A stretch of DNA of 64,000 bases, from positions 400,939 to 464,938 of the forward strand of contig NZ_KI928919.1 of assembly GCF_000521215.1 (NCBI RefSeq), written 5' to 3'. Of the stretch, positions 42,688 to 63,577 are shown one piece after another. The notes under the pieces were generated by a model. It was not told where the DNA came from. It ran no database searches and saw nothing but the letters and a program-made list of their open reading frames with translations. A program made the position numbers and the translations under genes. The DNA comes from Labrenzia sp. DG1229 (GTDB lineage: Bacteria; Pseudomonadota; Alphaproteobacteria; Rhizobiales; Stappiaceae). Positions within the stretch are counted from its first letter, which is position 1; each line of letters starts with the position of its first letter.

Positions 42688-42772
<85 letters not shown>

Positions 42773-42850
42773 CTTGCCTTTAGGTAAGTTATTGTTGTAA
42801 AATATGAAATTCAAATTGATTGACGTAAAAAAATACTTTTTGCCAAAAAG

Positions 42851-42898
42851 TGATGTACATTTTGATGTACATTTTGATGTACAAATCGGTGTACATTT
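42851..42898 (+). repeat. Four tandem 12-bp repeats with TGTACA core
   Basis: The unit TGATGTACATTT occurs twice exactly, followed by TGATGTACAAAT and CGGTGTACATTT. Each holds the palindrome TGTACA at 12-bp intervals. They lie just upstream of the probable integrase start (42913) and 80 bases from the tRNA-Leu end, where an operator or integrase arm-site array would be expected. Confidence 0.85.
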
Positions 42899-42912
42899 CC
42901 AAGCCTGCGGGC

Positions 42913-43642: not shown

Positions 43643-43651
43643 GGTTGCGAC

Positions 43652-44224
43652 TTGGACGGCGGACTTCAGCTCTACGCGCCTGACGGCAGGCGTCTTTATC
43701 TCAATGGCAGCGAACGATTGTCTTTTCTGGAGGCCGCAGAGCGGTCCCCGGACCGGATACGGCTGCTCTGCCGGGTGATCGCCTATTCCGGCTGCAGGCT
43801 CTCCGAGGCCTTGTCGCTGACGGCTCAGAGCTTCCAGGTGCAAACGGGTGTGGTGTCGATCCGCTCGCCGAAAAAGCGGAACAAGATCGTCTTTCGGAAA
43901 ATCCCGTTGCCGGAAGATCTGGTCCAGGATCTCGGCATGGTGTTTGCGGCCGAGTTCGCCGGCGACCAGGTGGCGCCGCTCTGGTCGGTGTCCAGGTCGA
44001 CAGCCTGGCGGCATCTGAAACACGTCATGGCTGTTGCCGGCATCACCGGACCGCAGGCCAATCCGAAAGGACTGCGGCATGCGTATGGCATCCACGCCAT
44101 CGCCTCGAGCGTGCCGCTGCACATGTTGCAGCGCTGGCTTGGTCATGCTGACATGAAGACGACCGCGATCTATGCTCAGGCGATCGGGCCGGAAGAACGG
44201 CAGATCGCGGCGCGGATGTGGTGA
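43652..44224 (+). CDS. Short tyrosine recombinase (catalytic domain only)
   Basis: The 190-residue product is a stand-alone tyrosine recombinase catalytic domain. It has Arg in SGCRLSEALSL, His-x-x-Arg in KGLRHAYGIHA, a His in LQRWLGHADMKTT and the nucleophile Tyr in TAIYAQAIG, so all key residues are present. It lacks the DNA-binding N-terminal domain of larger integrases. Small recombinases of about this size exist in alphaproteobacteria. It starts at a TTG ten bases after the broken integrase. It could be intact or the displaced 3' part of another integrase. Confidence 0.75.
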   Translation: MDGGLQLYAPDGRRLYLNGSERLSFLEAAERSPDRIRLLCRVIAYSGCRLSEALSLTAQSFQVQTGVVSIRSPKKRNKIVFRKIPLPEDLVQDLGMVFAAEFAGDQVAPLWSVSRSTAWRHLKHVMAVAGITGPQANPKGLRHAYGIHAIASSVPLHMLQRWLGHADMKTTAIYAQAIGPEERQIAARMW

Positions 44225-46752: not shown

Positions 46753-46920
46753 TGATCGTCCTTTCAAGCACCGCTCAAAGATGGACGCTAGCCAGGTGAA
46801 ATTCAACCAATGATCGTAGATGAGTTGATTGCCGTTGCCGGTGTGCGGGTGTCCGTCATCAGGTAAATTGAGACATCAAACGGCCTGACTAAAGGAGGGT
46901 CTGGCGCATCTGGATTTCAG

Positions 46921-47901
46921 TTAAGCAGCGGATTTGTCGTGCTGCAAGCGTCGTTGTTTCATGGTCCTCCTTTTGATCTTTTCTCGTTCGAGCAGGATGG
47001 TCTGGCCACGCCCGGTATAGACGTCGGCCGGGGTGAGATTGTTCAGGCTCTCGTGATAGCGCCGATGGTTATAGTATCCGATAAAGGCGTCGACCTGTGC
47101 TTCCAGGTCTTCTGGCAGAAAGTAGTTTTCCAAGAGGATCCGGTTCTTCAAGGTCTGATGCCAACGCTCGATCTTACCCTGGGTCTGCGGGTGATAGGGG
47201 GCACCGCGCGTGTGCGTCATGCCCTTTCCGGCAAGATATTCTGCCAGATCTCCGGAGATATAAGACGGCCCGTTGTCTGAGAGAAGTCTCGGGCGATGGA
47301 CGACGTTGACTTCATCGAGCCCGGAAGCCTCCAGTGCCAGATCGAGTGTGTCCTGAACATCGCTCGCAGCCATGCCGGAACACAGTTTCCAGGCGATGAT
47401 GTATCGGGAGAAGTCGTCCAGCACGGTGGATAGATAGAACCATCCCCAGCCGATCACCTTCAGATACGTAAAATCGGTCTGCCAGAGCTGGTTGGGTGCC
47501 GTGGTTTTCTCCCGGAACTCATCGGCGGCTTTCATCACGATGAAGGCCGGGCTGGTGATGAGGTCGCAGGCCTTCAGAAGCCTGTAAACACTGGCTTCCG
47601 AGACGAAGTAACGGCGTTCGTCAGTGAACTTGATCGCCAGTTCTCTGGGGGATAATTCAGGCTCGTCGAGCGCCATTTCGAGCACCTGCTCGCGCACGGC
47701 ATTCGGGATGCGGTTCCACACGCGGCCCGAGCCGCCGCGCCGGTCCGTGAGCGCGACCTCGCCAAAGCGGCGATAAAGGTCATACCAGCGATAAAAGGTC
47801 GGCCGGGAAACGCCGACCTGTTCCAGTGTTTTCTTCACCGGCTGGTGCGAGGTTTCGACCAGGCGGATGATTTCGAGCTTCTCGGAGGCGGGATATCTCA
47901 T
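46921..47901 (-). CDS. IS3-family transposase OrfB (DDE integrase core)
   Basis: The 326-residue transposase has an HTH-like start (SRPTFYRWYDLYRRFG), an HTH_21-like region, and a retroviral-integrase core with WQTDFTYLKV (D), LLSDNGPSYIS (D) and GKIERWHQTLKNR (E). All three catalytic acids are present and there is no stop or frameshift, so the element may be active. The C-terminus is basic. Confidence 0.92.
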   Translation of the reverse strand: MRYPASEKLEIIRLVETSHQPVKKTLEQVGVSRPTFYRWYDLYRRFGEVALTDRRGGSGRVWNRIPNAVREQVLEMALDEPELSPRELAIKFTDERRYFVSEASVYRLLKACDLITSPAFIVMKAADEFREKTTAPNQLWQTDFTYLKVIGWGWFYLSTVLDDFSRYIIAWKLCSGMAASDVQDTLDLALEASGLDEVNVVHRPRLLSDNGPSYISGDLAEYLAGKGMTHTRGAPYHPQTQGKIERWHQTLKNRILLENYFLPEDLEAQVDAFIGYYNHRRYHESLNNLTPADVYTGRGQTILLEREKIKRRTMKQRRLQHDKSAA

Positions 47902-48269
47902 TCGATATCCTCCCCATCCGCGATCACGCTTTTTTTGAGAACACGGTTTTCCAGCGTCAGGTCGGCCACTACTTCTTTCAGGTCACCCATCTCACGCTTT
48001 AGATCCGTCACTTCACTAGACGTCGCCTGTCGCTCGGTGTCGCCTGAAAGCCGCTTCTTGCCAGCCTCCAGGAACTCCTTCGACCAAGTGTAGTAGAGCC
48101 CCTGCGCGATCCCCTCACGCCGGCAAAGTTCGGCGATCGAATACTCCCCACGCAAGCCTTCCAGCACGATACGGATCTTCTCCTCGGCTGAGAATTTACG
48201 CCGGGTCTTCCGGCGAATGTCTTTTACATGTTTCTCGGCCGATACTTCCGGCCCGGATTTCTGTCTCAT
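47898..48269 (-). CDS. IS3-family OrfA (helix-turn-helix subunit)
   Basis: The 123-residue product has a helix-turn-helix (RRKFSAEEKIRIVLEGLRGE, then IAELCRREGIAQGLYYTWSK) and a leucine-zipper-like tail (LKREMGDLKEVVADLTLENR). It overlaps OrfB by ATGA, which suggests coupling or frameshifted fusion as in other IS3 elements. Confidence 0.9.
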   Translation of the reverse strand: MRQKSGPEVSAEKHVKDIRRKTRRKFSAEEKIRIVLEGLRGEYSIAELCRREGIAQGLYYTWSKEFLEAGKKRLSGDTERQATSSEVTDLKREMGDLKEVVADLTLENRVLKKSVIADGEDIE

Positions 48270-48335
48270 CTTCGCTCCCTTGGCGGGCTACGATCTGCCA
48301 GAAATCCTCCTTAAGCAATTTGACCGATTTGTCTC

Positions 48336-49208
48336 GTGGTCGCTGACGGGGAACACAGTGAGGCATTTGGATTCGCCTTCTTGAACATCGCGACTGCGTG
48401 GTTCTTCGGCCGACTTGGAGTGCCCGAAATCGGACACAAGAGCAAATTTCGAGCTTTTGTCGGAATCAATTCTCTAGTTATCTATTTCGCTTTTACGGTC
48501 GTTCTAAACCTTGCACTCGCACACTATAGAGACGTGGCAGAAGGCTTAACCACAGGCGGTGGTTTGATCGTGATGGAGCGACTTCTTGCTAGACCGTTTC
48601 ACCTAGACGACATCATGTCTTGGATTTTGTTCGGAGTGGGTGCCGCTTTTTCGCTTATTGCTTTCTTGGACGGTTTTTTTTGGACAGACCCCTATCCTCA
48701 ATATGGAGCTGTACAAAGGCGGCTCGAAAAAAGGCGTGTTGTGTACGCTGAAACAAAAAAGAAACTAGTCGACGACCTGAACGACGTTAGAGAGAACTAC
48801 TGTGACCAAATTGACGAAATTAGCCGAGATCTCTCCGATCGAAGGGGCGAGTTTGACGCCATTCTTTCGCACCGATCACGATTGGTTCGCTTGTTCGACC
48901 AACACCAATCCCATTTAGAAGTTTCGTGCAATTCACTGTTAAATATCTACAGGGAAGCAAACCGACGCGCGCGATCAAATAGAGCGCCCAAGCGCTTTTC
49001 ATCACCCTACAAAATCGACCGGGTTCAGGTGGCAGCAAACGTTGAAGGTGAACGCAGGCCAGAAGAGATACGGAGGTGGGTCGCAGACGCTCATGAAATG
49101 CTCAGCCATGAGAACAAGACAATTCACGAGGAATTCGAGACCGCTTTGGAAAACTACGAGCAACTCGATGACTTGATAAAACCCAGTGGAGCCCCGAATG
49201 GCTCGTGA
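48336..49208 (+). CDS. Membrane protein with coiled coil; first gene of the candidate system (possibly 5'-truncated)
   Basis: I do not recognise this 290-residue protein. About three hydrophobic segments occupy residues 11-125 (FVGINSLVIYFAFTVVLNLA, IMSWILFGVGAAFSLIAFLD), followed by a long charged helical region (KRRVVYAETKKKLVDDLNDV, ISRDLSDRRGEFDAIL) that should form a cytoplasmic coiled coil. The frame begins with GTG at the exact edge of the IS3 element, with no ribosome site, so the IS has probably removed the true 5' end. The stop overlaps the next gene by 11 bases. Confidence 0.7.
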   Translation: MVADGEHSEAFGFAFLNIATAWFFGRLGVPEIGHKSKFRAFVGINSLVIYFAFTVVLNLALAHYRDVAEGLTTGGGLIVMERLLARPFHLDDIMSWILFGVGAAFSLIAFLDGFFWTDPYPQYGAVQRRLEKRRVVYAETKKKLVDDLNDVRENYCDQIDEISRDLSDRRGEFDAILSHRSRLVRLFDQHQSHLEVSCNSLLNIYREANRRARSNRAPKRFSSPYKIDRVQVAANVEGERRPEEIRRWVADAHEMLSHENKTIHEEFETALENYEQLDDLIKPSGAPNGS

Positions 49209-50031
49209 TCGGCGACGGCGCAGCTCACGTCATAAGAATGCTGCAAACCTTTCTCTGATTTTTGCAGCTGCGATTATTATATTGGCTTGCATTGCAGCAG
49301 TCGGAGGTTTCTTCTATTGGAAAATTACAGCAGTTGACCGTCCTGAACTCCTCGCCAGTACTCTTTGTCCCGTGGACGGTCCATACGAGACAACTGTGGT
49401 TTTAATCGACTCTTCGGACTCAATACCTGATGTTGGCCGCCAGCAAATAGAACAATATCTCAATGACCTAGCTGACGATCTGGCGGATTATGGCTTGCTC
49501 GAGCTTCGAATCCTAGAACCAGAAACACCCGGTGGTCGAATTGCGTTCAGCAAGTGCAATCCAGGCAACGGGGCAAACCTGAGCGTGCTCACTGCTAATC
49601 CCGAAATGGCAAGACGTAAATGGGCATCTTCATTCAGAGAACCGCTACGAGAGGCACTTATATCGAGTCTCTCTCCTTCAGAGGCAAACTCCTCACCTAT
49701 TCTAGAGACCATTCAAAGAATTGCAGTAACTCATTTTACAGGAAAGAAAGCGGAGCACAGAACAAACCGGCTAATCATCGTTTCTGATATGTTGGAGCAT
49801 GGTCAAGACTACAGTCACTATCGCGATGGTACGTCTTACACTCGATATCAATCTAGCCCTGCACACAGGAAGTTTAGTACGGATCTAAGCGGTACCGCTG
49901 TTTCGATAAAGTACATTGAGCGCCTCAATTCGCCGGTCAGCTCGGGCGCTCATATGGAATTTTGGGCTGAATGGATCCAGTCAAATGATGGTTGGTTGTT
50001 CAGCGCCGAAAAACTTCAGGGGGCTGGTTAG
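49198..50031 (+). CDS. Single-pass protein with vWA-like domain; second gene of the candidate system
   Basis: The 277-residue protein has a basic N-terminus, one membrane helix near residues 22-44 (LSLIFAAAIIILACIAAVGG) and a periplasmic domain that looks like a von Willebrand A fold. VVLIDSSDSI fits the MIDAS motif DxSxS, and LIIVSDMLEHG fits the strand with the distal Asp. Such domains bind metal-dependent protein partners. I chose the ATG at 49198; a GTG 12 bases upstream is the alternative. Translationally coupled to its neighbours. Confidence 0.75.
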   Translation: MARDRRRRSSRHKNAANLSLIFAAAIIILACIAAVGGFFYWKITAVDRPELLASTLCPVDGPYETTVVLIDSSDSIPDVGRQQIEQYLNDLADDLADYGLLELRILEPETPGGRIAFSKCNPGNGANLSVLTANPEMARRKWASSFREPLREALISSLSPSEANSSPILETIQRIAVTHFTGKKAEHRTNRLIIVSDMLEHGQDYSHYRDGTSYTRYQSSPAHRKFSTDLSGTAVSIKYIERLNSPVSSGAHMEFWAEWIQSNDGWLFSAEKLQGAG

Positions 50032-50037
50032 AGAACG

Positions 50038-51276
50038 ATGGCACGCAGAAGTGAAACAAAATCACGATCCAGGTTGGCTGGCTTGTCTTTTTTCACGTTT
50101 TTTGTTGCTGGTAGTGCCTACATTATCGCGGCAAAGAATTTCGAGCTGCCCCCTTTTGTTGTAACTTTTATTCCAATCGGAATAATGGCGATCTATGCGC
50201 TGGCATCGAAATACATACCGGGCCTAAGATTACGCGATGATCAGAATGGAGATAATTGTTACTATCTCGGCTTTCTCTACACGCTCACAAGTCTCGGCAT
50301 GTCGTTGTATCAATTTGATATTACATCTTCTGGTGAAAGCATTATACAAAACTTTGGCGTAGCGGTCGCTAGCACAATTGCGGGCGTAGCATTTCGAGTT
50401 TTATTTCATCAAATGCGTCTCGACCCAGAAGATGTTGAAGCAGCGGCTCGGCTTGAACTTGCTGAGGCTTCTCGGCGTGTCAGACGCGAACTTGATGCTT
50501 CTGTACGAGATCTTGCAGTATTCCGACGCGCAACGGAGCAACAGATAAACGAAGGATTTGTTGAGGTTCAAAGTAGTTTGAATGAAGTAACTACGAAAAT
50601 TGTCAATACTTTCGATGAATTAGCGAAATCTGCCTCAAAACCCATCGAAGACGTTTCTATCAGTTCCAAAGATACAATTTCATCTCTGTCTGATTCAATA
50701 AGCAATAGCTTGACTGAGGCGGCGCAAACGCTTGCTAACCAAAGCGAGAATCTGGCCACTGCCAGCGGGGAAATTTCAAAATCCCTCGAAACAACGGCTT
50801 CTCAACTAAACGATATGCAGACACCCGATAAGGTGATTGAGATCCAGCTCACTCCTATCGCAAATGAACTCTCGCTAGCTGTTCAGGAATTCAGCACACG
50901 CTTGGATGCCAGAGCTGCCTCCGAAGACGGAATCTTAAAGGCGCTTCTAGACAGCAACAATTCCAGCGAAGCGCAATATGAGAAACTCTTGGAGACGGCA
51001 GAATCCATGTGGTCGGCTGCCAAAGTCATCCAGGACAACGCAAAGCGAGAAGAACACTCTTCACAGGTGCTTTTCGAAGTTTCTAACTCCGTCAGAGATG
51101 CTGTCATCCAGACGAAGGCAAATGCAGAGCAGGTGCAATCAATCATTGTAAATCTCAACCATTTCTTGCAAAGCAATTCAGAAACCGTAGCTTTGGCAGG
51201 ATTGACGCAAAGCATCAATGAATTAGTGAGAACAATTGGTGACGCGAACGCAGACGGGAATAATATGGCCAGATGA
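50038..51276 (+). CDS. MotA/ExbB-like membrane protein with long helical tail; third gene of the candidate system
   Basis: The 412-residue protein has three or four membrane helices in the first 125 residues; the last (NFGVAVASTIAGVAFRVLF) resembles the pore helix of MotA/TolQ/ExbB-type proton channels, which carries a similar A-x-x-x-T-x-x-G pattern. The remaining 280 residues are low-complexity, Ser/Ala/Glu-rich and helical, predicted to project into the cytoplasm. This is the layout of ZorA from Zorya systems, although shorter. The next gene encodes an OmpA/MotB-like partner, supporting a stator pair. Assignment is by architecture only. Confidence 0.7.
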   Translation: MARRSETKSRSRLAGLSFFTFFVAGSAYIIAAKNFELPPFVVTFIPIGIMAIYALASKYIPGLRLRDDQNGDNCYYLGFLYTLTSLGMSLYQFDITSSGESIIQNFGVAVASTIAGVAFRVLFHQMRLDPEDVEAAARLELAEASRRVRRELDASVRDLAVFRRATEQQINEGFVEVQSSLNEVTTKIVNTFDELAKSASKPIEDVSISSKDTISSLSDSISNSLTEAAQTLANQSENLATASGEISKSLETTASQLNDMQTPDKVIEIQLTPIANELSLAVQEFSTRLDARAASEDGILKALLDSNNSSEAQYEKLLETAESMWSAAKVIQDNAKREEHSSQVLFEVSNSVRDAVIQTKANAEQVQSIIVNLNHFLQSNSETVALAGLTQSINELVRTIGDANADGNNMAR

Positions 51277-51277
51277 C

Positions 51278-52327
51278 ATGAGGTTTCGAGCAGCAATCAA
51301 TGAAGACACAGACGCTTATAGGCGAGGTGTTGTACTTGGCCTAACGATGGCAGAGATACTTCTTCTGGTCGTCTTTTGCCTTCTGATTGCGACTGCGGCG
51401 ATTTTTAAAAGAGATCAAAACAAGGCTTCTGAACTTCAAAATCAAATCAATCGACAAAATCTGCAAATCAAACAACAAAAAGCTCAGATTGAAACAAGTA
51501 TAAAAATTTCCCAATTTTCAGAGAAGCTTTTATCTCAACTGACGAGAGCAAAAAATATTGAAGATGATTGGCGAAAAATCGTAGCGTCAAAGACGTTGGT
51601 TGATCGCCTTGAAAAAGAGGGCCTCAGCGCTGAAACGTTAATAAGCAAAGTAGAAACGCTGAAGGCAATCCAACCCATTCTGGAGAGTGATGCTTCAAGT
51701 GATGACCTAACCGCAGCAATCGAGCTGTCACATAAATTTAAGAGCGAAAGAGAGCTGCGCGGGTTAGAGGGCAAGTCGATCGTAGAAATCACCCGTCTCG
51801 CCGAAGTGGGGACTAACTTCGAAAACGACGATTCAGGTGATCATGATTGGCCGCCAATCATTATGTTAAGTGAGGCGGAAGAATATACGTTCGTCACTGG
51901 GAGTGCCGAGTTAAGTCAATCGTTTGAAGAAAAACTCTCCACCGACATCGCGCAGCAAGTCAATAGAATCGTTCGGCAATATGATGCGAATATAGTTGAA
52001 GTTATTGGCCACACGGATGAGCGTGCGCTGTCTCGAAAAGCTTCGAATCTAGATCGAAGACTCGCAGGTGCAATAACTGGCGCAGTTCCGATCGAAGCGC
52101 TTGTGGCTGCAGATAACACCGGGCTCGGTATGGCCAGAGCAGTCTCCGTCGCTCGAGTACTCAAGGCAGATCCTCGCTTGAAAGATGTAGTTGTTCTTCC
52201 TTTATCTGGTGGCCAACTCATCCTACCAGGTGACCAGCTTTCGACAGGGCAAAACCCTGGCGACGTTAAAAGTCGTCGTCGAATTGAGATTCGGATTCGC
52301 CGCCCTGAACAACAAATCAAACCCTAA
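51278..52327 (+). CDS. OmpA/MotB-like peptidoglycan-binding protein; fourth gene of the candidate system
   Basis: The 349-residue protein has one membrane helix near residues 24-44 (LTMAEILLLVVFCLLIATAA), a coiled coil to about residue 130, and a C-terminal OmpA/MotB-like domain from about 200. That domain shows VEVIGHTDERAL with the diaminopimelate-binding Asp, NTGLGMARAVSVARVL in place of the usual LSxxRAxxVxxxL, and RRRIEIRIRRP with the conserved Arg. Such proteins anchor MotA-like partners to the cell wall (MotB, ZorB). The ATG at 51278 follows the previous stop by one base. Confidence 0.8.
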   Translation: MRFRAAINEDTDAYRRGVVLGLTMAEILLLVVFCLLIATAAIFKRDQNKASELQNQINRQNLQIKQQKAQIETSIKISQFSEKLLSQLTRAKNIEDDWRKIVASKTLVDRLEKEGLSAETLISKVETLKAIQPILESDASSDDLTAAIELSHKFKSERELRGLEGKSIVEITRLAEVGTNFENDDSGDHDWPPIIMLSEAEEYTFVTGSAELSQSFEEKLSTDIAQQVNRIVRQYDANIVEVIGHTDERALSRKASNLDRRLAGAITGAVPIEALVAADNTGLGMARAVSVARVLKADPRLKDVVVLPLSGGQLILPGDQLSTGQNPGDVKSRRRIEIRIRRPEQQIKP

Positions 52328-52369
52328 TACCATCCATCATAGCAGGCGATAACTCATGGATCTTTGCCA

Positions 52370-53044
52370 ATGCCATCTCGAATTTTAGTCTCATTGACCC
52401 TTCTCGCAATGTCGTTGCTGGCTTTACCTATTGCTATTGCCAATTCGGCTTCAGTGTCCATCGTTGACGGGGACACTATCGATGTTGACAGCAAACGTAT
52501 CCGACTCCATGGAATAGATGCGCCCGAAGCAGGGCAATCCTGCAAAAAAGCTGGCGGTGGCGAATGGCCATGTGGGCGTCGTGCCATCGAGGAATTGGAG
52601 CAGCTAATCGGCGATGAAAGTCTAAATTGTAATGATCTTGGGACAGACGATTTCGGGAGAACCCTGAGTGTTTGTTACTTGGGACCGATTGACATCAATG
52701 AAGTCATGGTTCGCAATGGCTTTGCTTGGTCATTTCGAAAATATGCGAGTGACTACAATGATGTTGAAGACCAGGCGCGTAAGGAACAATTGGGTGTCTG
52801 GCAAAGGACAACCCAAACTCCTTGGGAGTTTCGCGCTCGTCGTTGGGAAGTAGCCGAGCAATCTGCACCCGATGGCTGTCCTATCAAAGGTAACATTTCC
52901 CGCAATGGCCGCATTTACCACGCTCCGTGGTCTCCCTGGTACTCCCGAACCAAAATCGATACTTCAAAAGGAGAGCGCTGGTTCTGCGATGAGGCTGAGG
53001 CAACAAGTGCTGGTTGGCGCGCTCCCTTCTGGGGGAGCAGATGA
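52370..53044 (+). CDS. Secreted thermonuclease-family nuclease
   Basis: The 224-residue protein has a signal peptide (hydrophobic residues 5-22, cleavage likely after IANSA) and a staphylococcal-nuclease fold. The catalytic and calcium-binding signals are VDGDTIDV and RIRLHGIDAPE, with GTDDFGRTLSVCY in the middle. A C-terminal extension of about 80 residues with paired Cys (PDGCPIKGN, RWFCDEAEA) matches the excalibur-like tail of some such nucleases. It begins 42 bases after the OmpA-like gene on the same strand, so it may be the effector of that operon or independent cargo. Confidence 0.88.
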   Translation: MPSRILVSLTLLAMSLLALPIAIANSASVSIVDGDTIDVDSKRIRLHGIDAPEAGQSCKKAGGGEWPCGRRAIEELEQLIGDESLNCNDLGTDDFGRTLSVCYLGPIDINEVMVRNGFAWSFRKYASDYNDVEDQARKEQLGVWQRTTQTPWEFRARRWEVAEQSAPDGCPIKGNISRNGRIYHAPWSPWYSRTKIDTSKGERWFCDEAEATSAGWRAPFWGSR

Positions 53045-53925: not shown

Positions 53926-54111
53926 CTAGTCCTTTGTCGCTCGCGAATTTTCCAACTGCTTATTCTCGTATTCTTCAATCAGGGACAGATTGAAACGATA
54001 AAGTTTTCCTATTCGAAAATGCGGCACTTCACCTTTCTTGCAGAGATTACGAATTGCGTTCGATGAAACGGACCAACGCTCGGCTAAGTCTTCTGTTTTC
54101 AATATCTTCAT
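53926..54111 (-). CDS. Excisionase-like helix-turn-helix protein
   Basis: The 61-residue protein (MKILKTEDLAERWSVSSNAI, then GEVPHFRIGKLYRFNLSLIE) matches the MerR-like excisionase HTH fold (HTH_17). Such proteins direct integrases or regulate island genes. I start it at 54111; an in-frame ATG at 54141 would extend into the IS630 end. The IS630 element lies 19 bases upstream and may affect its expression. Confidence 0.75.
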   Translation of the reverse strand: MKILKTEDLAERWSVSSNAIRNLCKKGEVPHFRIGKLYRFNLSLIEEYENKQLENSRATKD

Positions 54112-54130
54112 TGAAGTTCCGTTAGTTATA

Positions 54131-55290
54131 CCAACCGTCATAATTCAGAACCGATGCGCCCAATCTCGTAGTCCGATGGACATGATGGTCCAGGGTTGGT
54201 CAATTACCCTGTTCCATGCGCGGCAACAGATATCGACGATTTGTTCGTAGGATTTGAAGATCCGGTTTGACAGCCAGTTGTCCCTGATGAACTGCCAGAG
54301 GTTCTCGACCGGGTTCAATTCGGGAGACCTCGGCGGCAATGGTAGAAGCGTGATGTTGTCGGGGATTTCGAGTTTGCCCGATGTATGCCATCCAGCCTGG
54401 TCGAGGATGACGACGGCATGAGCTCCTGGAGCGACCTGCGACGAGATTTCTTCAATGTGCAACTGCATGGCCGCCGTGTTGCATTTGGGAAGGACCAGTG
54501 CAGCTCCGACGCCACGTGCCGGGCAGATGGCCCCAAATATCCAGGCTGACTTTGTCCGCTGATCCTTGGGGGCACGTGGTCGTGTCCCGCGTTTGGCCCA
54601 TCGCCTTGTGAGTTTGGTTTTCTGCCCCACGCGTGCCTCATCCTGAAACCAAACCTCTACAGAGGTGTTGCTTTCAAGCCGATTGCGGATTTCCGCCAGT
54701 TCGGTTGGGAAGCTTTTTTAAAATCCTCGACGGCAAACTCGTTTTGCGCCGGATGCTGCGGGCGGGCGGTCAAACGCCGATATCCAGCATTCTTCAACTC
54801 TCGCGATACGGTACACTCGTCAATAGCAATGCCAAATTCGGACAGGATCCACGCGGCCAGATCCTTCAGGCGCCAACGCACCACTGCGTCCACCGAGGGA
54901 TACGGGCCGCGTTCGACAATCTCGATCAACGCACGCCGCTGCTGCTCGTCAAGTTTTGAGGGGCGACCGGCCTTGGGAGCATCCTTCAAACCATCGGGAC
55001 CAGATGCATTGAAACGCAACACCCAATCCCGAATGATCTGAAGCGTCACACCGCCCGTGCGGGCCGCGTCCGTACGGCTCCCGCCATCATAGATAACGGC
55101 CAGTGAAAGTAACCGGCGTGTCTGTTTGGCATCCCGGCAATGCTTCGCCAACTGGCGAAGGTCGCATCCGTCAAAGTCATTTCGAAGCGAAATCGCGGCT
55201 CCCATGGCAAACTCCTCTCGTTTGCCATCTGGAATCATATTCGCGCCAAAACGGGAAGCCCAAACATGAGTCACTTCATCTGATGGTTGG
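54131..55290 (-). mobile_element. IS630-family insertion sequence, complete
   Basis: The element is 1160 bp. The ends CCAACCGTCA (left) and CCAACCATCA (right, reverse complement) are inverted repeats, and TA flanks both sides (54129-54130 and 55291-55292), the target duplication of this family. It contains one transposase in two overlapping frames. Confidence 0.85.
54145..55205 (-). CDS. IS630-family transposase in two frames (probable -1 frameshift)
   Basis: The first frame (MGAAISLRNDFDGCDLRQLA) holds the HTH domains and runs to about 54657; the DDE domain (VEVWFQDEARVGQKTKLTRR, VVILDQAGWH, SPELNPVENLWQF) is in the -1 frame to 54145. At 54714-54723 the coding strand has TTTTAAAAAAGC; a -1 slip on the A6 run joins FKK to SFPTELAEIRNRLESNTS. 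The joined product is 353 residues, normal for the family. Catalytic Asp, Asp and Glu are present. A programmed slip is more likely than decay because the site is a classic slippery run. Confidence 0.88.
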
Positions 55291-56000: not shown

Positions 56001-56234
56001 TTAGCTGTGAGCTTGAGCCAAGGCGTTAATCTGATCTTCAATTACAACAGGATAACCACGAAATACTCGGGGAACATTCCGGTGCGACGACATCCATGCA
56101 CTATCACCAGCAACCACCAACCGCTCCCCGCTATGATCGTTCCAAGCGAATACTGAACCCCGCCCACTAGGAAGGGAGAGTGACTCGGCAAGTGCGGTGG
56201 CCGCCGCCATAGCTTTTTTGTGGCTTTCAGACAT
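56001..56234 (-). CDS. Small partner protein of the trypsin-like protease
   Basis: The 77-residue product is unfamiliar. It starts with a helix (SESHKKAMAAATALAESLSL) and has a short beta-rich part (RLVVAGDSAWM, GYPVVIEDQ). Its start overlaps the protease stop by 8 bases, so the two are coupled. It could be an inhibitor, substrate or chaperone of the protease; that is inference from position only. Confidence 0.6.
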   Translation of the reverse strand: MSESHKKAMAAATALAESLSLPSGRGSVFAWNDHSGERLVVAGDSAWMSSHRNVPRVFRGYPVVIEDQINALAQAHS

Positions 56235-57342
56235 GATGTCCCGACACGATCTCTACCGACAATTTTTTCATAATCTCTGGCAGAGGTAAAATGAATGATA
56301 ATCCTCTTTGTTCATTTCCGGCAAATACCAAACCAACGGCTACCGATCTTCCATTGCCATCGTCTGCCACGACCAACGAACCGGAGTCTCCAGGCTTCGA
56401 GAATGGCATCCCACTGTCGCCAACCACAACAAAAACAGTTTCGAAAAAAACCGTTTTACGAATTCCATACTCCGCTACATGATACTGAACAGGTACGGGC
56501 GAAGCAGATTGGGCGACAATAGTCCCCTTAGTAAATCCCGTCGTTCTGCCGAACTTCTTAACACGCATTGATGGCGTAGGTGTGGCAACGTCTGGAGGGG
56601 TATCAAACACTGTCCCTTGGAATGATGTAACTTTGTCGATGTCTGCTAAACGAAATAGGCTTACGTCCCAATTAACGTCGATCTTAATGTTTTCTGGTAT
56701 GCCATCGTTTATCGGTAACAAACGATCGTGCCTTCCAATCGTGAAAGGGTCGCATGCGGCTTCGGTGGCATCAAGCGGCCCCGGTGCCAAGATCGGCAAG
56801 CCGGGCATAGCATTATTGCAAGCCCCTGCTACATGGTTGTTGGTCATTCCATAATAAACACCATTTTGATCTCGGACTATAAGACCCAAAGTCCCTGCAC
56901 CTACACAATGCGCCGGGAATATCGATGAACCGCAGGTATAGCGACCTGCTCTCAGGTTGAAAGGGTGAGGATTTTGAGGAGGTGGCGGGTTTCCCTTGAC
57001 CTGAGCAACGCCGCCCTGGATGTATTCGATGGTGATGCCGTCCATGTGGAAGGGAAGTATCTTTTCGTCGGCTTTGCTAACTTTGCCATGAGTGAAGATA
57101 ACAACCTTCTTGTCACTCTCGTTGTAACCAACGAGGTTAATAGATTTTTTTCTTAGAATTTGCTCTACGGCCTGAGCTCGAAACGCGTCCTCACCGGTTG
57201 AGAACCCATCTTGTTCGCTTTCAAACGCCTCTTCTAAAGGCACTTTGTCAAAAAGATTGTGCCTTTTTGCCCACGCTAAAACACCTTCGGCCAATGTTTT
57301 CGCCGATTGCGGTTTTGCATCACTTGCTTGGTCATCTTGCAT
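56227..57342 (-). CDS. Trypsin-like (S1-fold) serine protease without signal peptide
   Basis: The 371-residue protein has an N-terminal region of about 115 residues, a Pro-rich linker (GNPPPPQNP), and a trypsin-like domain. The triad is visible: His170 in MTNNHVAGAC, Asp226 in NVNWDVSLF-type context (IDVNWDVSLFRLAD), and Ser320 in KPGDSGSLVV. No signal peptide is seen, so it is probably cytoplasmic, which is unusual for this fold and known among defence- and stress-linked proteases. The coupled small gene follows. Confidence 0.8.
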   Translation of the reverse strand: MQDDQASDAKPQSAKTLAEGVLAWAKRHNLFDKVPLEEAFESEQDGFSTGEDAFRAQAVEQILRKKSINLVGYNESDKKVVIFTHGKVSKADEKILPFHMDGITIEYIQGGVAQVKGNPPPPQNPHPFNLRAGRYTCGSSIFPAHCVGAGTLGLIVRDQNGVYYGMTNNHVAGACNNAMPGLPILAPGPLDATEAACDPFTIGRHDRLLPINDGIPENIKIDVNWDVSLFRLADIDKVTSFQGTVFDTPPDVATPTPSMRVKKFGRTTGFTKGTIVAQSASPVPVQYHVAEYGIRKTVFFETVFVVVGDSGMPFSKPGDSGSLVVADDGNGRSVAVGLVFAGNEQRGLSFILPLPEIMKKLSVEIVSGHHV

Positions 57343-57511: not shown

Positions 57512-57799
57512 CTATCCAAACGAAAGTAATTTGCCTTTCTCCTGGCCATCCCACTTTATTGGCCCTGGTAGCCCTGTGAGCTTCCCGTTTTTAGCAGGGC
57601 TACCCTTAATCTGAGTAAGGGTAACTTCTAAAGCTGATCGGCTGAAAATTAAGCCGATTTGGGCACGCGTAACTTTCGTGAGTTCCGATCGGTTTTGCTT
57701 TGCCTCGGCAATGGCTTCAGCGATATCTAGTTTTGCTAAGTTCTGACAGCCAATGTCTTTCGCAGTCTTCTCGCTGCACCCCGCATTCTGGCCGAATGC
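57512..57799 (-). pseudogene. Possible phage terminase small subunit remnant
   Basis: A minus-strand open stretch without a start codon reads AFGQNAGCSEKTAKDIGCQN, then LAKLDIAEAIAEAKQNRSEL, ending at TAG 57512. SEKTAKxIGxxxLxKxxIxxxIxxxxxxRSE is the helical signature of terminase small subunits (Terminase_2). An in-frame stop lies just upstream and the usual first 30 residues are absent. The call rests on reading by eye. Confidence 0.4.
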
Positions 57800-58013
57800 T
57801 TATCACACAAAAATTTTGAATTTTTGGAGAAACACGCAAAAAGATGGCTAATTTTGTGCTGCTTGCGCACAATTCGTGTATTTTGACAAATAGAATGCCT
57901 CAAATCTTCAAAATAAGAGTCACTGGCGCGCATTCTGGGCTCTTCCGGTGTTCGGCCTACCTAAAAATTCCTATCGCGCGCCCAGCGCACCTTAGATTGG
58001 CTCCCTTCAACTA
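57800..58013. other. Non-coding stretch left of the replication genes
   Basis: Short open frames on both strands (for example 57844-58083 and 57736-57933) have no ribosome sites or family-like sequence. Together with 57343-57511 this leaves the boundary between the protease cargo and the replication module without visible genes. Confidence 0.45.
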
Positions 58014-58919
58014 TCACGCAGCGCCCTTGTCCAGACCGTCATTCACGCCCATCCGTTCTCTAACTTCGTTTACGATGTCCTGAGGGATGACACAGCCGGG
58101 ATGTTCGGGTGGATGATCGTCAGACCACGCTGGGGTATACCGCCACTCAGCTGCCTGACCGGAGAACCAGCGCTCCAGTTTTGAAACCACGGCGGCGCGG
58201 CTTGCGTGATTGTGGTTTAAGAGCTGGATCGTGTCTTGAGCATTTGGCGTTTGAGCTTTGGAGTTTTCATTGCCACCAACATCCGGCGCAGGCTGATCGG
58301 CCCAGCGCTCTTGGTTAAGCCATGTGGCGGGGTTGCACCAAGAACGGTCTGCGGGCTTGGTAAGGACGTACTGTTGCAATCCGGTCTTGAGGGTTTCGAG
58401 ATCGGTTTTTTTGATCACGGTTTTGAACGCTTTGAGGGCTGCCCCCCGGCCTACCTTGTGTGGATAGTCCGCATACCATTCCTCGAACTGCTCTTCACTG
58501 GATGGGTATTTTGGTTTTGAAGGCTGAACTTCATCAACATTTTCCCCGCGCGTTTCTGCCTCTGTCTCTCCCTCTGTCTCTGTCTCTCGCGAGCGCGCGA
58601 AGGCTAGCGGCTTGCTAGCATCTTGCTCCACATTGCGTAGCTCTTGATTTTCAATGAGAAATCCGAAGTCGAACAAAACTTGAAGATCAGGCTCATCATT
58701 TGCATTGATGCGCTTCGCAACCCATCTCGCATCCATCGGAATACGGTTACCGGAGCGGGATGCTAGCAACCAGATAGCAATGAGATGCCACTTGCTGATA
58801 TCGGGCAAACAGCCGAATTCGTAATCGTCCAAAAGTTCGTTGTAGAGTTTGATCCAAGGCGGATTTCGATCCTTGTAATGCTGGAATTTGTCGAAGTTTT
58901 TGACGCTGAAAGTTCTCAT
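58014..58919 (-). CDS. Phage-type replication initiation/primosomal protein
   Basis: The 301-residue protein begins MRTFSVKNFDKFQHYKDRNP and PPWIKLYNELLDDYEFGCLP, the start of phage and island replication proteins of the DnaT/O-like type with a winged helix. The middle is charged (ETETEGETEAETRGEN) and the C-terminal YPSSEEQFEEWYADYPHKVG matches the helicase-loader-like domain. The start overlaps the helicase stop (ATGA at 58916-58919). It probably loads the DnaB-like helicase encoded just before it. Confidence 0.75.
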   Translation of the reverse strand: MRTFSVKNFDKFQHYKDRNPPWIKLYNELLDDYEFGCLPDISKWHLIAIWLLASRSGNRIPMDARWVAKRINANDEPDLQVLFDFGFLIENQELRNVEQDASKPLAFARSRETETEGETEAETRGENVDEVQPSKPKYPSSEEQFEEWYADYPHKVGRGAALKAFKTVIKKTDLETLKTGLQQYVLTKPADRSWCNPATWLNQERWADQPAPDVGGNENSKAQTPNAQDTIQLLNHNHASRAAVVSKLERWFSGQAAEWRYTPAWSDDHPPEHPGCVIPQDIVNEVRERMGVNDGLDKGAA

Positions 58920-60344
58920 GACAGCCCCCTTTGCGATTTGCTCGCGATATCGCCAGTTTCGACGGAGCAATAAACTGTGTGGTCACGGCACGGCCCGAGT
59001 CTGTTTTTTCCGATCCTGATCAGCAGATCGTTTGCACGCCGCTCATACTTCTCCAGAGCCTCATGTGAGGGGTTTGGATCGTGTGCGTCGTAGTATGCGG
59101 GGCGATAGAGAAGCAGCACCTGGTCTGCGTGCTCTTCAATGCTACCTGAATCTCGCAGGTCCGACATGACAGGCCGTTTGTCATCACGGCTCTCAACAGC
59201 GCGGTTCAGCTGGGCCAACAGCACAACACAGATGTCCAGGCGCTTAGCCATACACTTGAGCGACCAAACCAACTCTCCAAGCTCGTGGACAAGGTTCCCG
59301 CGATACCTGTCTGATTTTCGCATGAGCCCCAGATAATCGACAAAGATCACGCCAAGGGTGATGCCCTGTTTTTCAAAGTCAGACTTCCAAAGCCGTGCCT
59401 TCGCTTCGATCTGGGCAGCACTGAGCCCGCCTGCATCAGTGATCTTCACGGGCAGGTCTGACGTGGATCGGGAGTAATTTTTGAAACTTCAAAAACTGCT
59501 GGTCGGTCAGCTTGCCATTCTGGATATCGGAATAGGTGATCTTTTCCCCATGCCCCAGCGCCGCCTCTGCGGAGATAAGACGGGACACCCATTCTTGCCG
59601 GTCGATTTCAAGAGATGCGATGCCGACACCGTAGCCTTGACGCGCCACCCTGCGGGCAAAAGCAACCATGGCCTGTGATTTACCCATTCCAGGCCGACCT
59701 GCCATGACAACAAGCCGCTTGGGCCGCAGTCCTGTCATGGAATTGTCCAAGTCCGTGAGCCCGGTAAGTGGCACCTTCGCGTCTTCGCCGTTCATGCGCG
59801 ACACAATGTTGGATTCAAGCTCAGATACGACGGCGGGCAACGCGGTAGCTGTATCTTCACTGCCCTCTATGTCAGTGCGGAGTTCCAGAATGCTGGCGTC
59901 GATTTCTTCAAGAAGTTCGTTCGTGTTCGCCGCCCCAGACATGGCGCGGGAAGCAACAGAAGCGGAAAGCACCATGAGATTACGCCTCACGGCTAGTTCA
60001 ATGAGCTGATCCGCATATTCGTGAAGATGCATAGGATTGGCCGCACCCACGGTGCATGCCATCATATATTGAGGCACCGACTGCCCTTTAGGGCCTTGCG
60101 CCGTAACACGGGTTTTCAGTGTTACCGGATTAGCCACCCTCCCTTCGTAAAATAGAGCCGTGGCTTCCCGGAAAATTTCTGAATTCAGAGGACTGTAGAA
60201 GTGCTCTGGCTTCAACCGCTCCGCCACTTGCCCAATAAGATCGTTGTTCGATAGGAGCGCGCCGATCACAAGTTGCTCAGCCTTGATGTTTTCAGGGGGC
60301 TCGTTCAGCATGATGACAGCTGACTGATTGATGTTCGGGGTCAT
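58916..60344 (-). CDS. DnaB-like replicative helicase, interrupted by a one-base insertion
   Basis: The N-terminal half, from 60344, has the DnaB N-domain (AEQLVIGALLSNNDLIGQVA), Walker A (AGRPGMGKSQAMVAFARR) and runs off frame near 59459 after LPIHV. The second half, one base shifted, continues DLPVKITDAGGLSAAQIEAK with Walker B (VIFVDYLGLMR) and the arginine-finger region (LLAQLNRAVESR, DLRDSGSIEEHAD) to 58916. Dropping one A from minus-strand GTCAGACC restores a normal protein of about 475 residues. The start overlaps the upstream gene (ATGA). Confidence 0.85.
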
Positions 60345-60478
60345 TTTCCGCCCCCTTTCAAATGAAGCTTTTCGATCACGGTGCCAACTGCCGCGCCGAT
60401 TGGAATCCAGTCCTGGTAAGCCACGTCTTCACGCGGCGCAGGCTTTTGAGATGTCGGGGAGACTTGCGGCTCAGCCAT
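60341..60478 (-). CDS. Small island protein between coupled genes
   Basis: The 45-residue protein (MAEPQVSPTSQKPAPREDVA, ending HLKGGGK) has no recognisable family. Its start overlaps the previous stop by 8 bases and its stop overlaps the helicase start (ATGA), so it is very likely translated. Confidence 0.55.
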   Translation of the reverse strand: MAEPQVSPTSQKPAPREDVAYQDWIPIGAAVGTVIEKLHLKGGGK

Positions 60479-60785
60479 GGTCCCACCCCGCTGATTCTGC
60501 TTCGCTGGAAGGGTTGTAGAAGTTTTCACGCAGCCAACGATAGGTCACGCATCCGTCGCGACGGAAAAGGCGATGCCCGACGTCGTTGCGACCTGCACAA
60601 ATCATTTCACACCGATCATGCAAGAGACGCGCGCCCGGTACCGTATTCTGCATGATTTGCGCAGCTACGCTGATGGGAACATGAAACGGATAGTGCGCGA
60701 ACTTTGCCAGTTCTTGTTTCAGGGATGTGACGGGAAGCGGCTCAAGAATCGAAACGTTCTGGCCAACGATAACGGGATTGCTCAT
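60471..60785 (-). CDS. Hypothetical protein of the replication module
   Basis: I do not recognise this 104-residue protein. It has YPFHVPISVAAQIMQNTVPG and CEMICAGRNDVGHRLFRRDG, suggesting a compact mixed fold. It lies 14 bases after the excisionase-like gene and overlaps the next small gene, within a coupled operon ending in the helicase and replication genes. Confidence 0.6.
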   Translation of the reverse strand: MSNPVIVGQNVSILEPLPVTSLKQELAKFAHYPFHVPISVAAQIMQNTVPGARLLHDRCEMICAGRNDVGHRLFRRDGCVTYRWLRENFYNPSSEAESAGWDHG

Positions 60786-60799
60786 CTATTGGCACCCCC

Positions 60800-61126
60800 T
60801 TATGCCGCCGCCGGATTTGCAGTAATTTTGATTGGCGTGAGGGTTGGCAGCCGGTTGAGTTCAGCGACCTTGAACACGACTTTCGAGCCAAGATAGTACT
60901 TGGTGATGAGGCCGCGCTCAGCAAGCCTTTCCAGGGTGTCGGGGCTGCAATCGAGGTGCTCGCTGGAAGGCATCCTGCCCTTGTAGCCGCCTTCGGCAGC
61001 TTCTGCGGATTCAACCAGTTTCTGCAGCTCAGCTTTGATCTCCGCAAGATCAGAAGCAAGAGCGTCGATATCTTGCGTATCGTTCGCCCTCCGCTCTGCC
61101 TTACGGCTCAGGTATTCGCTTTTCAT
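60800..61126 (-). CDS. Small protein with C-terminal DNA-binding-like domain
   Basis: The 108-residue protein has a charged coiled coil (LASDLAEIKAELQKLVESAE) and a C-terminal segment SPDTLERLAERGLITKYYLG-type that looks like an excisionase/MerR-like winged helix. Ribosome site GGAG precedes the ATG. Its position after the integrase operon is where an excision or replication-control gene is expected. Confidence 0.6.
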   Translation of the reverse strand: MKSEYLSRKAERRANDTQDIDALASDLAEIKAELQKLVESAEAAEGGYKGRMPSSEHLDCSPDTLERLAERGLITKYYLGSKVVFKVAELNRLPTLTPIKITANPAAA

Positions 61127-61222
61127 GAGTCCATCTCCGTTTCCATGAGCAGGCAACCGCTTGTAGCCGCCTGACTGCAACGAAGATGCGTGATGAGCTT
61201 ATTGGGAAATAGCCGTCACGAA

Positions 61223-62140
61223 TTATTGGTGTTTCGAAACACTGTCACGAACTGGACTTTTCGGGCCGGACTTATTCCAGTTGGTGTTCCCTGTTTTTTC
61301 AATCGCGAGTGACCACTGTCTTTGAAATGCACGGATACTGATGTCGAATTCGGCTGTCATTTCGTCCTGGTAGTCACGCTTGTTCTTTTCAGGGGAAGAG
61401 CCACCTTGCATTAACGCGAGTAAATGTTTGCCGCATTGCGTTTCCGACGCAATGGTTGTGGACCTCGGTTTCGCGGACGCTGGCAAGATTGGCGGCCAAA
61501 TGCGCAAAACGTCTCGTGTTGAAAATGTGATGTTTTGAAAGCCTCGCGATAGAGGCCCGGCGCTCACATAAGGTTCCAAATTGAAGCCAGTATCATGAAA
61601 ACGGATTTCGCCACCGCGCCACAAGTGCAATGATACAGGCTCTAGTTCATTCGTGGCTGTGTTTTCGCCAGTGGCTTCCAGCTGCTGGTCCAGGCAAGCC
61701 TTTACAAGTTCTTTTTGCGCACTTTCCCTTGGCATCAATAAGGACACGGCGTCCAATTTGCCGATCATCGAGATTCCCTCAATGCCGGTTGGCGTGTCTT
61801 GTTTCAGTTCATAGTACCCGCGCCTCATTGGCCTTCCGTTCGGTCCGGGGACCGTCTCGTATCTATGATGAAGACGTACGTTTTGGCGACAAAACTCGGC
61901 CCAAAAGGATCTAACAAAATTCGCATCGCGCGACATGATCCACGCCAATGTCATTGTGAGTGTCCAAACCGATTCATCAAGCGGGTCATAATCATTTGGA
62001 TCAACGATGGTTTGCAGTGGGCCAATACCCCCTTCCTCCGCGATTTGTTCGCCTTCCTCCTTCGAAAGACCTTCGCGGCCCATGCGGCCAATCAAAGCTT
62101 TTTGTGCTTCAAGGCGCTTAAGAAATTCGTCATGATCCAT
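61223..62140 (-). CDS. Conserved-looking island protein of unknown function
   Basis: The 305-residue protein is unfamiliar. It opens with a charged helical part (DEFLKRLEAQKALIGRMGRE), a middle with WTLTMTLAWIMSRDANFVRS, and a Ser/Lys-rich end. It starts 8 bases after the integrase stop, so it is probably cotranscribed with it. Confidence 0.6.
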   Translation of the reverse strand: MDHDEFLKRLEAQKALIGRMGREGLSKEEGEQIAEEGGIGPLQTIVDPNDYDPLDESVWTLTMTLAWIMSRDANFVRSFWAEFCRQNVRLHHRYETVPGPNGRPMRRGYYELKQDTPTGIEGISMIGKLDAVSLLMPRESAQKELVKACLDQQLEATGENTATNELEPVSLHLWRGGEIRFHDTGFNLEPYVSAGPLSRGFQNITFSTRDVLRIWPPILPASAKPRSTTIASETQCGKHLLALMQGGSSPEKNKRDYQDEMTAEFDISIRAFQRQWSLAIEKTGNTNWNKSGPKSPVRDSVSKHQ

Positions 62141-62148
62141 CGAAGCAC

Positions 62149-63351
62149 CTATCCGGCATACTGATTGATCTGGACCACTTCACCGGAAGCGCCAGTCAGA
62201 AAATTCGCCCATGCGGTCAGTAGATTGCGCCGCTTCTTGATCGCGGTACTGCGTCGATAAGCGTTTTCTGTCGCGTCGCCGACTTTATGCGCCAGACATC
62301 CTTCCGCCACTTCTCGGGTAAATTCGGTTTCGTCTCCGGCCCAATCCCGAAATGATGACCGGAAGCCGTGCGGCGTGTACTGCCCGAATTCCATCCGGCG
62401 CAGCTGCATTTCTAGGACCATGCCGGAAAGCGGTCTGTCGCGTTTGTTGCCGGGGAAAATCCAATCGTCACGGCGCCGCTCATGGAGCGTTTGCAGAAGC
62501 TCATAGACCGGATCGGTCAAAGGCACAGCATGGACATGCTTCATCTTCATGCGTTGAGCGGGGATGGTCCAGACACGCTTATCTAAATCAACTTCGCTCC
62601 AACTCGCATTAAGAACTTCACCGGATCGGCAAGCGGTAAAAATCAGCAATTCAAGAGCGCGTGCTGAAAGTCCTTGCCGTTCGCGAAGCTGCGTCACAAA
62701 TGCGGGGACATCAGCATAAGGCATGGCGGCGTGATGCTGCACGTTTTTCAGCTTGGACGGCTTAGGTAAAATGTTATCAAGGTTGCCACGCCAAGCGGCT
62801 GGATTTTCACCTTCACGCCAGCCTTTTATCTTTGCGTAGTTCAAGACCCGTTCTATGCGCCCCCTGACCCGGGTTGCAGTTTCGGTCTTTGTTGTCCAGA
62901 TTGGCTTGAGAATAGCCAGCACGTCCGCGAGGTCGATCTCTGAGGGGCGCTTGTTTTGGATCTTTCCGCAATAGGTCGGGCCAAGGGTCATTTGCCACTG
63001 AGCGCGATGCTTCTCGTTTGACCAGCCCTCTTGATTGTTCTCAAGGAACTGTTTGACGCATTCCGAAAAGATTGGTTCAGCCTCTTTACTCGTCTCATTT
63101 CGCGGATTGCCGCCGTTCGCAATCAGCTCTCTGAAATGCGCGGCTTGCTTTCGGGCGGAAGATAGCGCGACGGCTGGATAGGGGCCCATGCCGAACTCAT
63201 CGCGATGACCGTTCCTGGTCCACATGAATGACCACGATTTCGAGCCTGATTTAGAGACCCTTAAAAAGAGCCCGCCGCCATCGCTCAAGCGACCGGGCTT
63301 GCTTGCCGCCTTGACCTTGGCGTCATTAAGCTTGTGGATTTGGCGTGCCAT
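62149..63351 (-). CDS. P4-type tyrosine integrase
   Basis: The 400-residue integrase has the DUF4102 arm-binding start (HKLNDAKVKAASKPGRLSDG), a SAM-like core-binding domain, and a catalytic domain with Arg in FTACRSGEVLNASW, HGFRSSFRDWA (His-x-x-Arg) and the Tyr in AHKVGDATENAYRRS. It points away from tRNA-Ser, 137 bases from its 3' end, the usual layout of a genomic island. It is intact. Confidence 0.93.
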   Translation of the reverse strand: MARQIHKLNDAKVKAASKPGRLSDGGGLFLRVSKSGSKSWSFMWTRNGHRDEFGMGPYPAVALSSARKQAAHFRELIANGGNPRNETSKEAEPIFSECVKQFLENNQEGWSNEKHRAQWQMTLGPTYCGKIQNKRPSEIDLADVLAILKPIWTTKTETATRVRGRIERVLNYAKIKGWREGENPAAWRGNLDNILPKPSKLKNVQHHAAMPYADVPAFVTQLRERQGLSARALELLIFTACRSGEVLNASWSEVDLDKRVWTIPAQRMKMKHVHAVPLTDPVYELLQTLHERRRDDWIFPGNKRDRPLSGMVLEMQLRRMEFGQYTPHGFRSSFRDWAGDETEFTREVAEGCLAHKVGDATENAYRRSTAIKKRRNLLTAWANFLTGASGEVVQINQYAG

Positions 63352-63487: not shown

Positions 63488-63577
63488 TGGCGGAGAGAGG
63501 GGGATTCGAACCCCCGGAACGCTTGCGCGCTCAACGGTTTTCGAGACCGCCCCGTTCAACCACTCCGGCACCTCTCC
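63488..63577 (-). tRNA. tRNA-Ser, anticodon CGA
   Basis: Read on the minus strand, the acceptor GGAGAGG pairs with TCTCTCC (one G-T), the long variable arm is GAGCGCGCAAGCGTTC, the T-arm reads GGGGGTTCGAATCCCCC, and CCA is encoded. The anticodon is at 63541-63543. Its 3' end faces the integrase and is the probable attachment site; I found no second copy of this 3' end in the window. Confidence 0.97.

Follow-up and report, generated by a model that had tools for sequence, protein, structure and literature searches.

A compact row of minus-strand genes borders a tRNA-Ser (CGA) gene in Labrenzia sp. DG1229 and forms part of an integrated, phage-related genetic element. The stretch of DNA analysed (the window) comprises 64,000 nucleotides of contig NZ_KI928919.1 (assembly GCF_000521215.1, positions 400,939 to 464,938). 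Leading away from the tRNA gene, the row contains (i) an integrase gene, (ii) orf305, encoding a protein without a family match, (iii) hth126, encoding a helix-turn-helix (HTH)-like protein, (iv) two small open reading frames (ORFs), (v) a DnaB helicase gene in two parts, and (vi) a replication gene (Table 1). The genes are tightly spaced or overlapping, with successive gaps of 8, 42, 14, −8, −4, −14 and −4 bases.

The original prediction, made from the sequence of the window alone, had presented this row as a phage-satellite-like island at tRNA-Ser, carrying an integrase, small DNA-binding genes, a DnaB-like helicase, a replication protein and a possible remnant of the small terminase subunit (TerS). 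The tRNA-Ser gene was confirmed by ARAGORN, the integrase proved to be of the tyrosine type with arm, central and catalytic Pfam domains, and the replication protein was recognised in the PHROG scans. The helicase is present with both its N and C domains; it is split over two ORFs by a one-base frameshift relative to the closest relative found, L011 (IMG/VR 2880767578), in which a single ORF of 471 aa is open. A pattern search of IMG/VR gave no relatives of the DnaB N part. Where small DNA-binding genes had been announced, hth126 has an HTH-like character, with a Pfam match that falls below the cut-off; its product also weakly matches a "virion structural protein" family (phrog_473, E 0.0024). 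The TerS remnant did not hold up, as no row protein gave a credible TerS match in the Pfam and PHROG scans, and a TerS-like gene lies instead on the other arm of the element (see below). The element has an integrase, a replication module and HTH genes, to none of which a regulator family was matched.

For orf305, weak homologs were found in two related genomes (G032 and G087), no relatives were retrieved by DNA pattern search of IMG/VR and GTDB, and the AlphaFold model of its product was of low confidence. The G087 homolog (L030, contig C26) is a 448-aa protein of the same family on a small contig that starts with tRNA-Ser(GGA).

The ends of the element were defined by comparison with G020, a near relative in which the site is empty (attB). 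The window matches the tRNA-Ser flank of its relatives exactly up to position 63488, and their tRNA-Leu flank up to 42772; both positions are tRNA 3′ ends. In the window a 6-bp core, TGGCGG (attL), is joined to the right half of the empty site, while contig C15 of the same genome has the left half followed by TGGCGG (attR, C15:376393-376398). Since the same core is joined to opposite halves of the G020 site, the two junctions represent the two ends of one integration. The G020 DNA beside tRNA-Ser is 97% identical to C15:370402-376398. The window therefore holds one arm of the element, whose other end is on C15. If the two arms are directly joined, the element measures ∼26.6 kb, including an insertion sequence (IS) of the IS3 type. 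A long direct repeat of the tRNA 3′ end was rejected as a boundary: none occurs elsewhere in the window, one copy with two mismatches occurs elsewhere in the genome, and it was the empty site that yielded the 6-bp core. No near-identical phage or plasmid covering the element was found.

The window itself is composite, with the IS3 copy as the junction of two islands. In the relatives G020, G033, G017 and G005, tRNA-Leu and tRNA-Ser lie on different contigs or megabases apart. The end of C15 and the start of a further contig, C10, are both inside this same IS3, and in G020 the DNA to the right of tRNA-Leu shares 96% identity with the C10 start. The three bases GGG left of the IS3 in the window reappear right of the IS3 on C10, in the manner of a target duplication, and no target duplication is shared between the IS3 flank on C15 (GTC) and the right flank in the window (CAG). 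Through the IS3, half of a tRNA-Leu island and half of the tRNA-Ser element are thus joined, whether by an assembly error or by a genuine recombination event. At 42688-44224 of the window, tRNA-Leu followed by an integrase gene broken into several ORFs makes up the left half of that other island; its right flank is at the C10 start.

The C15 arm (9.9 kb without the IS3) carries, in the order leading toward attR, genes for a 168-aa protein adjoining the IS3, a 614-aa protein, a 740-aa protein of family phrog_5880 (virion-type; E 7.6e-82, part of its sequence being N), several small proteins, a TerS-like protein termed KGG, a TIGR04255 protein, a 98-aa protein and a Fic protein. The 614-aa protein (C15_614) is transglycosylase-like and matches phage hydrolase and tail proteins. 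Mutual matches (E 1e-17 to 1e-25) connect the phrog_5880 proteins of the studied genome, G032 and G227; that of G291 matches G032 (E 4e-13), and that of a Devosia metagenome-assembled genome is 62% identical to G291. By position, the counterpart of C15_614 in Devosia matches phrog_2534, a family described as released from phage upon infection, and the one in G227 matches a transglycosylase family. Phage Mwe-JY13 has two adjacent genes with matches to C15_614 and to the phrog_5880 protein, and in phage RHph_I3_18 a phrog_5880-type homolog follows a "putative tail protein". The genes of this region would, judging from these matches, encode virion-interior or ejection-type proteins. In the phage collection, the C15 protein family gave weak matches only, and a pattern search of IMG/VR returned none for the phrog_5880 proteins of C15 and Devosia.

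The assignment of KGG as TerS draws on both similarity and position. KGG matches the small terminase family phrog_641 weakly but repeatedly (E at the 1e-6 level), and the KGG profile gave no match in the PDB. In two prophages (G183 and G412), the coding region of a short KGG protein runs into the start of the gene for the large terminase subunit (TerL), which is followed by portal and, farther on, capsid genes; this placement directly before TerL supports KGG as TerS. The G183 TerL matches Sf6 gp2, and the G412 portal and capsid match solved portal and capsid structures, while the G412 TerL was named by eye and had no PDB match. KGG is preceded in G032 by another TerS-like gene (phrog_51). A GTDB-wide pattern search yielded three loci among 132 matches that encode KGG relatives, namely in the studied genome, in Devosia ginsengisoli and in a contig-end fragment of Mesorhizobium caraganae.

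Within the order, 20 of 397 genomes had a KGG match at E ≤ 0.001. Ten of these were taken, including G334, which was left out of the analysis; the other ten all had weak matches. Among the genomes analysed, the studied genome (G000), G291 and G227 carry satellite-like loci with an integrase, replication genes, KGG and phrog_5880-type genes, and the two KGG loci of G183 and G412 are the prophages already mentioned. G343 has an integrase, an Xis-like gene, a 587-aa gene, KGG and a transposase, with no phrog_5880-type gene; G420, G267 and G317 were assigned to neither class. The lone KGG gene of G267 (L142, contig C1) lies ∼8 kb from a tRNA-Ser(CGA), the tRNA type found in the window.

Homologs of both arms occur together in G032, a second Roseibium genome, on one contig and with ∼35 kb from integrase to KGG. 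At the integrase end are homologs of the integrase, orf305, hth126 and the 104-aa protein (Table 1), and at the far end those of C15_168, the phrog_5880 protein, C15_100 and KGG (71-75%). The replication set differs, and the stretch between the arm homologs is contiguous, with mostly cargo-like genes. A second tRNA-Ser fragment lies ∼6.5 kb from tRNA-Ser at G032:C33:11507-19590, where there is probably another element at the site. On a single contig of 636,889 bp, G291 carries an integrase, orf298, a helicase, a primase, a gene designated 434, phrog_5880-type genes 574/610, an LE-like gene and KGG. In G227 there are an integrase, an Xis-like gene, a RepA-type ATPase, a RuvC-like gene, a KGG-like gene, a transglycosylase-like gene and a phrog_5880 gene. 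The observed part of the Devosia locus, which stops short of the integrase end, has DnaB, Rep, cargo, genes 452 and 681, an LE-like gene and KGG. From integrase to last phage-type gene the distance is ∼12 kb in G227 and ∼14 kb in G291. Integrase identity to G291, G227 and G343 is 49%. Much of the plan is common to G032, Devosia, G291 and G227, with replication modules exchanged. In seven gene pairs between elements pN/pS was 0.27-0.46, a sign of constraint, with synonymous changes saturated in three of the seven comparisons.

Genes for a virion shell were sought in several ways. PHROG scans of 30 proteins (10 + 10 + 10) of the two arms recognised none that would stand for TerL, portal, capsid or tail. 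The corresponding scans of the relatives covered part of their ORFs (20 proteins of G032, 7 of G291, 3 of Devosia and 10 of G227). A panel of 24 head, packaging and tail queries had no matches in 1,069 ORFs of 14 satellite-like sequences, at a limited sensitivity, since of 14 control phage loci it marked 10, and 8 of these were marked by a query of different origin. An earlier panel of 16 TerL, portal and capsid queries marked none of the 14 satellite-like sequences against 10 of 19 controls, self-hits included, and was insensitive to the point of missing all head genes of G412. Within these limits, the element does not have the gene set of a complete prophage (TerL, portal, major capsid, tail). 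The predicted lack of capsid, portal and tail genes thus holds for the window, which is one arm, whereas the C15 arm has virion-type phage genes. Own capsid genes, a trait of the capsid-forming satellites discussed below, were not recognised in the element; beside this stands a "major head protein" label (phrog_21712, E ∼1e-26) on the phrog_5880-type proteins of Devosia and G291. The AlphaFold model of the Devosia 681-aa protein is of low confidence and nearly all helix, and no PDB match was obtained for the phrog_21712-labelled protein, which would speak against a capsid fold without settling the matter.

Taken as a whole, these observations suggest that the two arms are the integrase and replication end and the far end of an element from a satellite-type family in Hyphomicrobiales, inserted at a Roseibium tRNA-Ser, in a copy that looks damaged. 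We give this reading a probability of roughly 0.57. The satellite plan of the original prediction persists in that both arms and the relatives have an integrase, replication genes, cargo and a TerS-like gene with no TerL, portal or capsid recognised, and needs amendment in that virion-type genes are kept. Several of the results above tell against a satellite. Virion-type genes are excluded by strict satellite definitions, and the phrog_21712 label, the partial scans, the weak query panels and the saturated comparisons count on the same side. By blastp, C15_614 did not match the genes in the equivalent position in the relatives; with the gene beside phrog_5880 not demonstrably shared and the absence tests weak, a satellite becomes slightly less likely. 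In G032, the contig ends 304 bases after KGG, a 596-aa gene bears a tape measure label (phrog_19914, E 2.6e-5), and an 849-aa gene carries a domain labelled as internal virion protein or endolysin. Nor is there an obvious resident helper, because the only TerL (phrog_2) matches in the genome are a Mu-like prophage (L156, C2:278405-279667) and a short remnant on contig C43 (L158, C43:1-8395), a small contig on which TerS-like and TerL-like ORFs are followed by non-phage genes; both were named by eye.

The main rival is a decayed prophage: a temperate phage inserted at tRNA-Ser would have been stripped of its TerL, portal, capsid and tail genes through deletions and IS insertions, its leftovers having no joint function. 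The nearest relatives of the DnaB-Rep pair lie on a contig from IMG/VR that also has genes for TerL, portal and head, so that structural neighbours, named at the outset as the sign of a decayed prophage, were found for this module; for the element as a whole they were not. KGG and phrog_5880-type genes likewise occur in full phages, and in the studied copy two IS elements are present, the helicase is frameshifted and the IS3 flanks do not match. Against decay, G032, G291, G227 and Devosia carry related subsets in which the genes are open, at ∼50-75% identity and with pN/pS well below 1, beside differing replication modules; that each should have decayed independently to one and the same set is improbable, and an ordinary decayed prophage was dropped as the first choice once G291 and Devosia showed the same plan. 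We consider this rival unlikely. The damage itself indicates that the studied copy is probably impaired, on account of the two IS insertions and the frameshift. The lack of a common target duplication at the IS3 flanks of C15 and the window also means that a piece between the arms may be missing, and a full prophage could be imagined whose head genes are on unassembled or other contigs, given that C15 ends inside the IS3 and the assembly has gaps. The contiguous, mostly cargo-like stretch in G032 and the absence of head genes from the scanned ORFs of G291, G227 and Devosia make this very improbable. An integrative cargo island, in which genes of phage origin are retained because they serve the host (in defence or competition) and travel otherwise than by phage packaging, would suit the protease, nuclease, Fic, TIGR04255 and ZorA-like genes and the failure to find a helper in the genome; its own replication module and conserved TerS-like gene have no easy explanation unless the element is packaged, and we regard it as improbable, more so than decay.

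If the element is a satellite, infection or induction by a helper phage would lead to its excision and replication. Its TerS would then recruit the helper TerL, so that element DNA is packaged into helper capsids, and its virion-type proteins would enter the particle in place of, or beside, the internal proteins of the helper. As helpers, phages resembling that of G412 would come first into consideration. On gene content, it is conceivable, and we propose it tentatively, that this is an undescribed satellite family of Hyphomicrobiales which supplies TerS and DNA-ejection-type proteins itself while lacking a shell; entry into a new host cell would then be governed by the satellite and not by the helper.

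The genes left of the row (Table 1) include probable cargo. The Nal1-like protease matches phrog_25502, a family of unknown function, extremely strongly, although nothing in the phage collection matched it. The four-gene plus-strand row may be an undescribed defence or membrane system. The 71-aa protein gave the sole TerS-labelled match in the window (phrog_57, E 0.0017); it was rejected as TerS, being weakly matched, outside the row and better scored as an excisionase.

Table 1. Features of the window (positions in nucleotides; percentages are identities to the relative named).
Feature	Position	Strand	Evidence or remark
attL core TGGCGG	63488..63493	.	Partner attR C15:376393-376398; junctions against the G020 empty site
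tRNA-Ser (CGA), integration site	63488..63577	-	ARAGORN; exact match of relatives up to 63488
Tyrosine integrase	62149..63351	-	PF13356, PF22022, PF00589 (arm, central, catalytic domains); phrog_1; 67% to G032
orf305	61223..62140	-	No Pfam, PHROG or NCBIfam match; directly after the integrase gene, also in G032
hth126, 126-aa HTH-like protein	60800..61180	-	HTH_17, E 0.0039, below cut-off; 41% over 80 aa to G032
104-aa protein	60471..60785	-	53% to G032
45-aa ORF (62 aa from upstream GTG)	60341..60478	-	
DnaB helicase, N part	59436..60344	-	PF00772 and PF03796; 67% to L011
DnaB helicase, C part, other frame	58916..59449	-	PF03796; 85% to L011
Replication protein	58014..58919 from ATG at 58919 (58014-58970 in longer form)	-	phrog_270, phrog_26426; ATG overlaps DnaB stop
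Trypsin-fold (Nal1-like) protease, probable cargo	56227..57342	-	PF25819, E 1.4e-11; phrog_25502, E 1.4e-176
IS630-type transposase, two ORFs	54145..55274	-	Match to annotated IS630 transposase
71-aa excisionase-like HTH protein	53926..54141	-	phrog_66, phrog_7735
Nuclease-like cargo	52364..53044	+	phrog_452 endonuclease
Four-gene cargo row	48336..52327	+	One weak ZorA (MotA/TolQ-like) match; no PHROG matches
IS3 copy	46850..48355	-	Joins two islands

Known satellites come mostly from Enterobacterales, Vibrio, Gram-positive cocci and cyanobacteria. No satellite in Hyphomicrobiales, Rhizobiales, Rhizobium, Roseibium or Labrenzia was found in the open-licence papers searched. The comparisons that follow draw on excerpts of the cited papers. 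Phage-inducible chromosomal islands (PICIs, including the SaPIs) have an integrase, a replication module, TerS without TerL, and accessory genes between TerS and the element end (PMC6092414, PMC13376191), a plan that the element shares in having a TerS-like gene and no recognised TerL beside the other parts. It differs from them in carrying virion-type genes: no TerL, portal or capsid was recognised, but a phrog_5880 gene and a phage-hydrolase/tail-like gene are present. Against the ∼12-15 kb of PICIs, G227 (∼12 kb) and G291 (∼14 kb) are of similar size, whereas the studied copy (∼26.6 kb, IS3 included) and G032 (∼35 kb) exceed it. Capsid-forming PICIs (cfPICIs) supply some virion parts (PMC11389934). 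The element likewise brings virion parts, but no capsid was recognised in it and its virion-type genes look internal, not shell-forming. Phage-inducible chromosomal minimalist islands (PICMIs), described from Vibrionaceae, spread in phage particles (PMC10803314); like these, and like the marine virion-encapsidated integrative mobile elements (VEIMEs) and the tycheposons, the element is a small integrative element of marine bacteria. The AH14b satellite of Pseudomonas sp. ANT_H14 is small, integrated, equipped with its own primase and packed in helper capsids (PMC4936722); it resembles the element in having its own replication gene, and differs in that its authors found no terminase or structural gene in it. 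The KGG prophages of G183 and G412 share the TerS type with the element and have the TerL, portal and capsid genes of which none was recognised in it, and phages Mwe-JY13 and RHph_I3_18 share its phrog_5880-type genes. In the excerpts of the open-licence literature compared, no satellite with ejection-type genes is described.

If the proposed reading is true, a satellite that keeps TerS and virion-interior genes without a shell would sit between PICIs and cfPICIs. Stolen capsids would be filled with satellite DNA together with the satellite's own internal proteins, and the origin of satellites from phages would become testable in culturable marine and soil bacteria.

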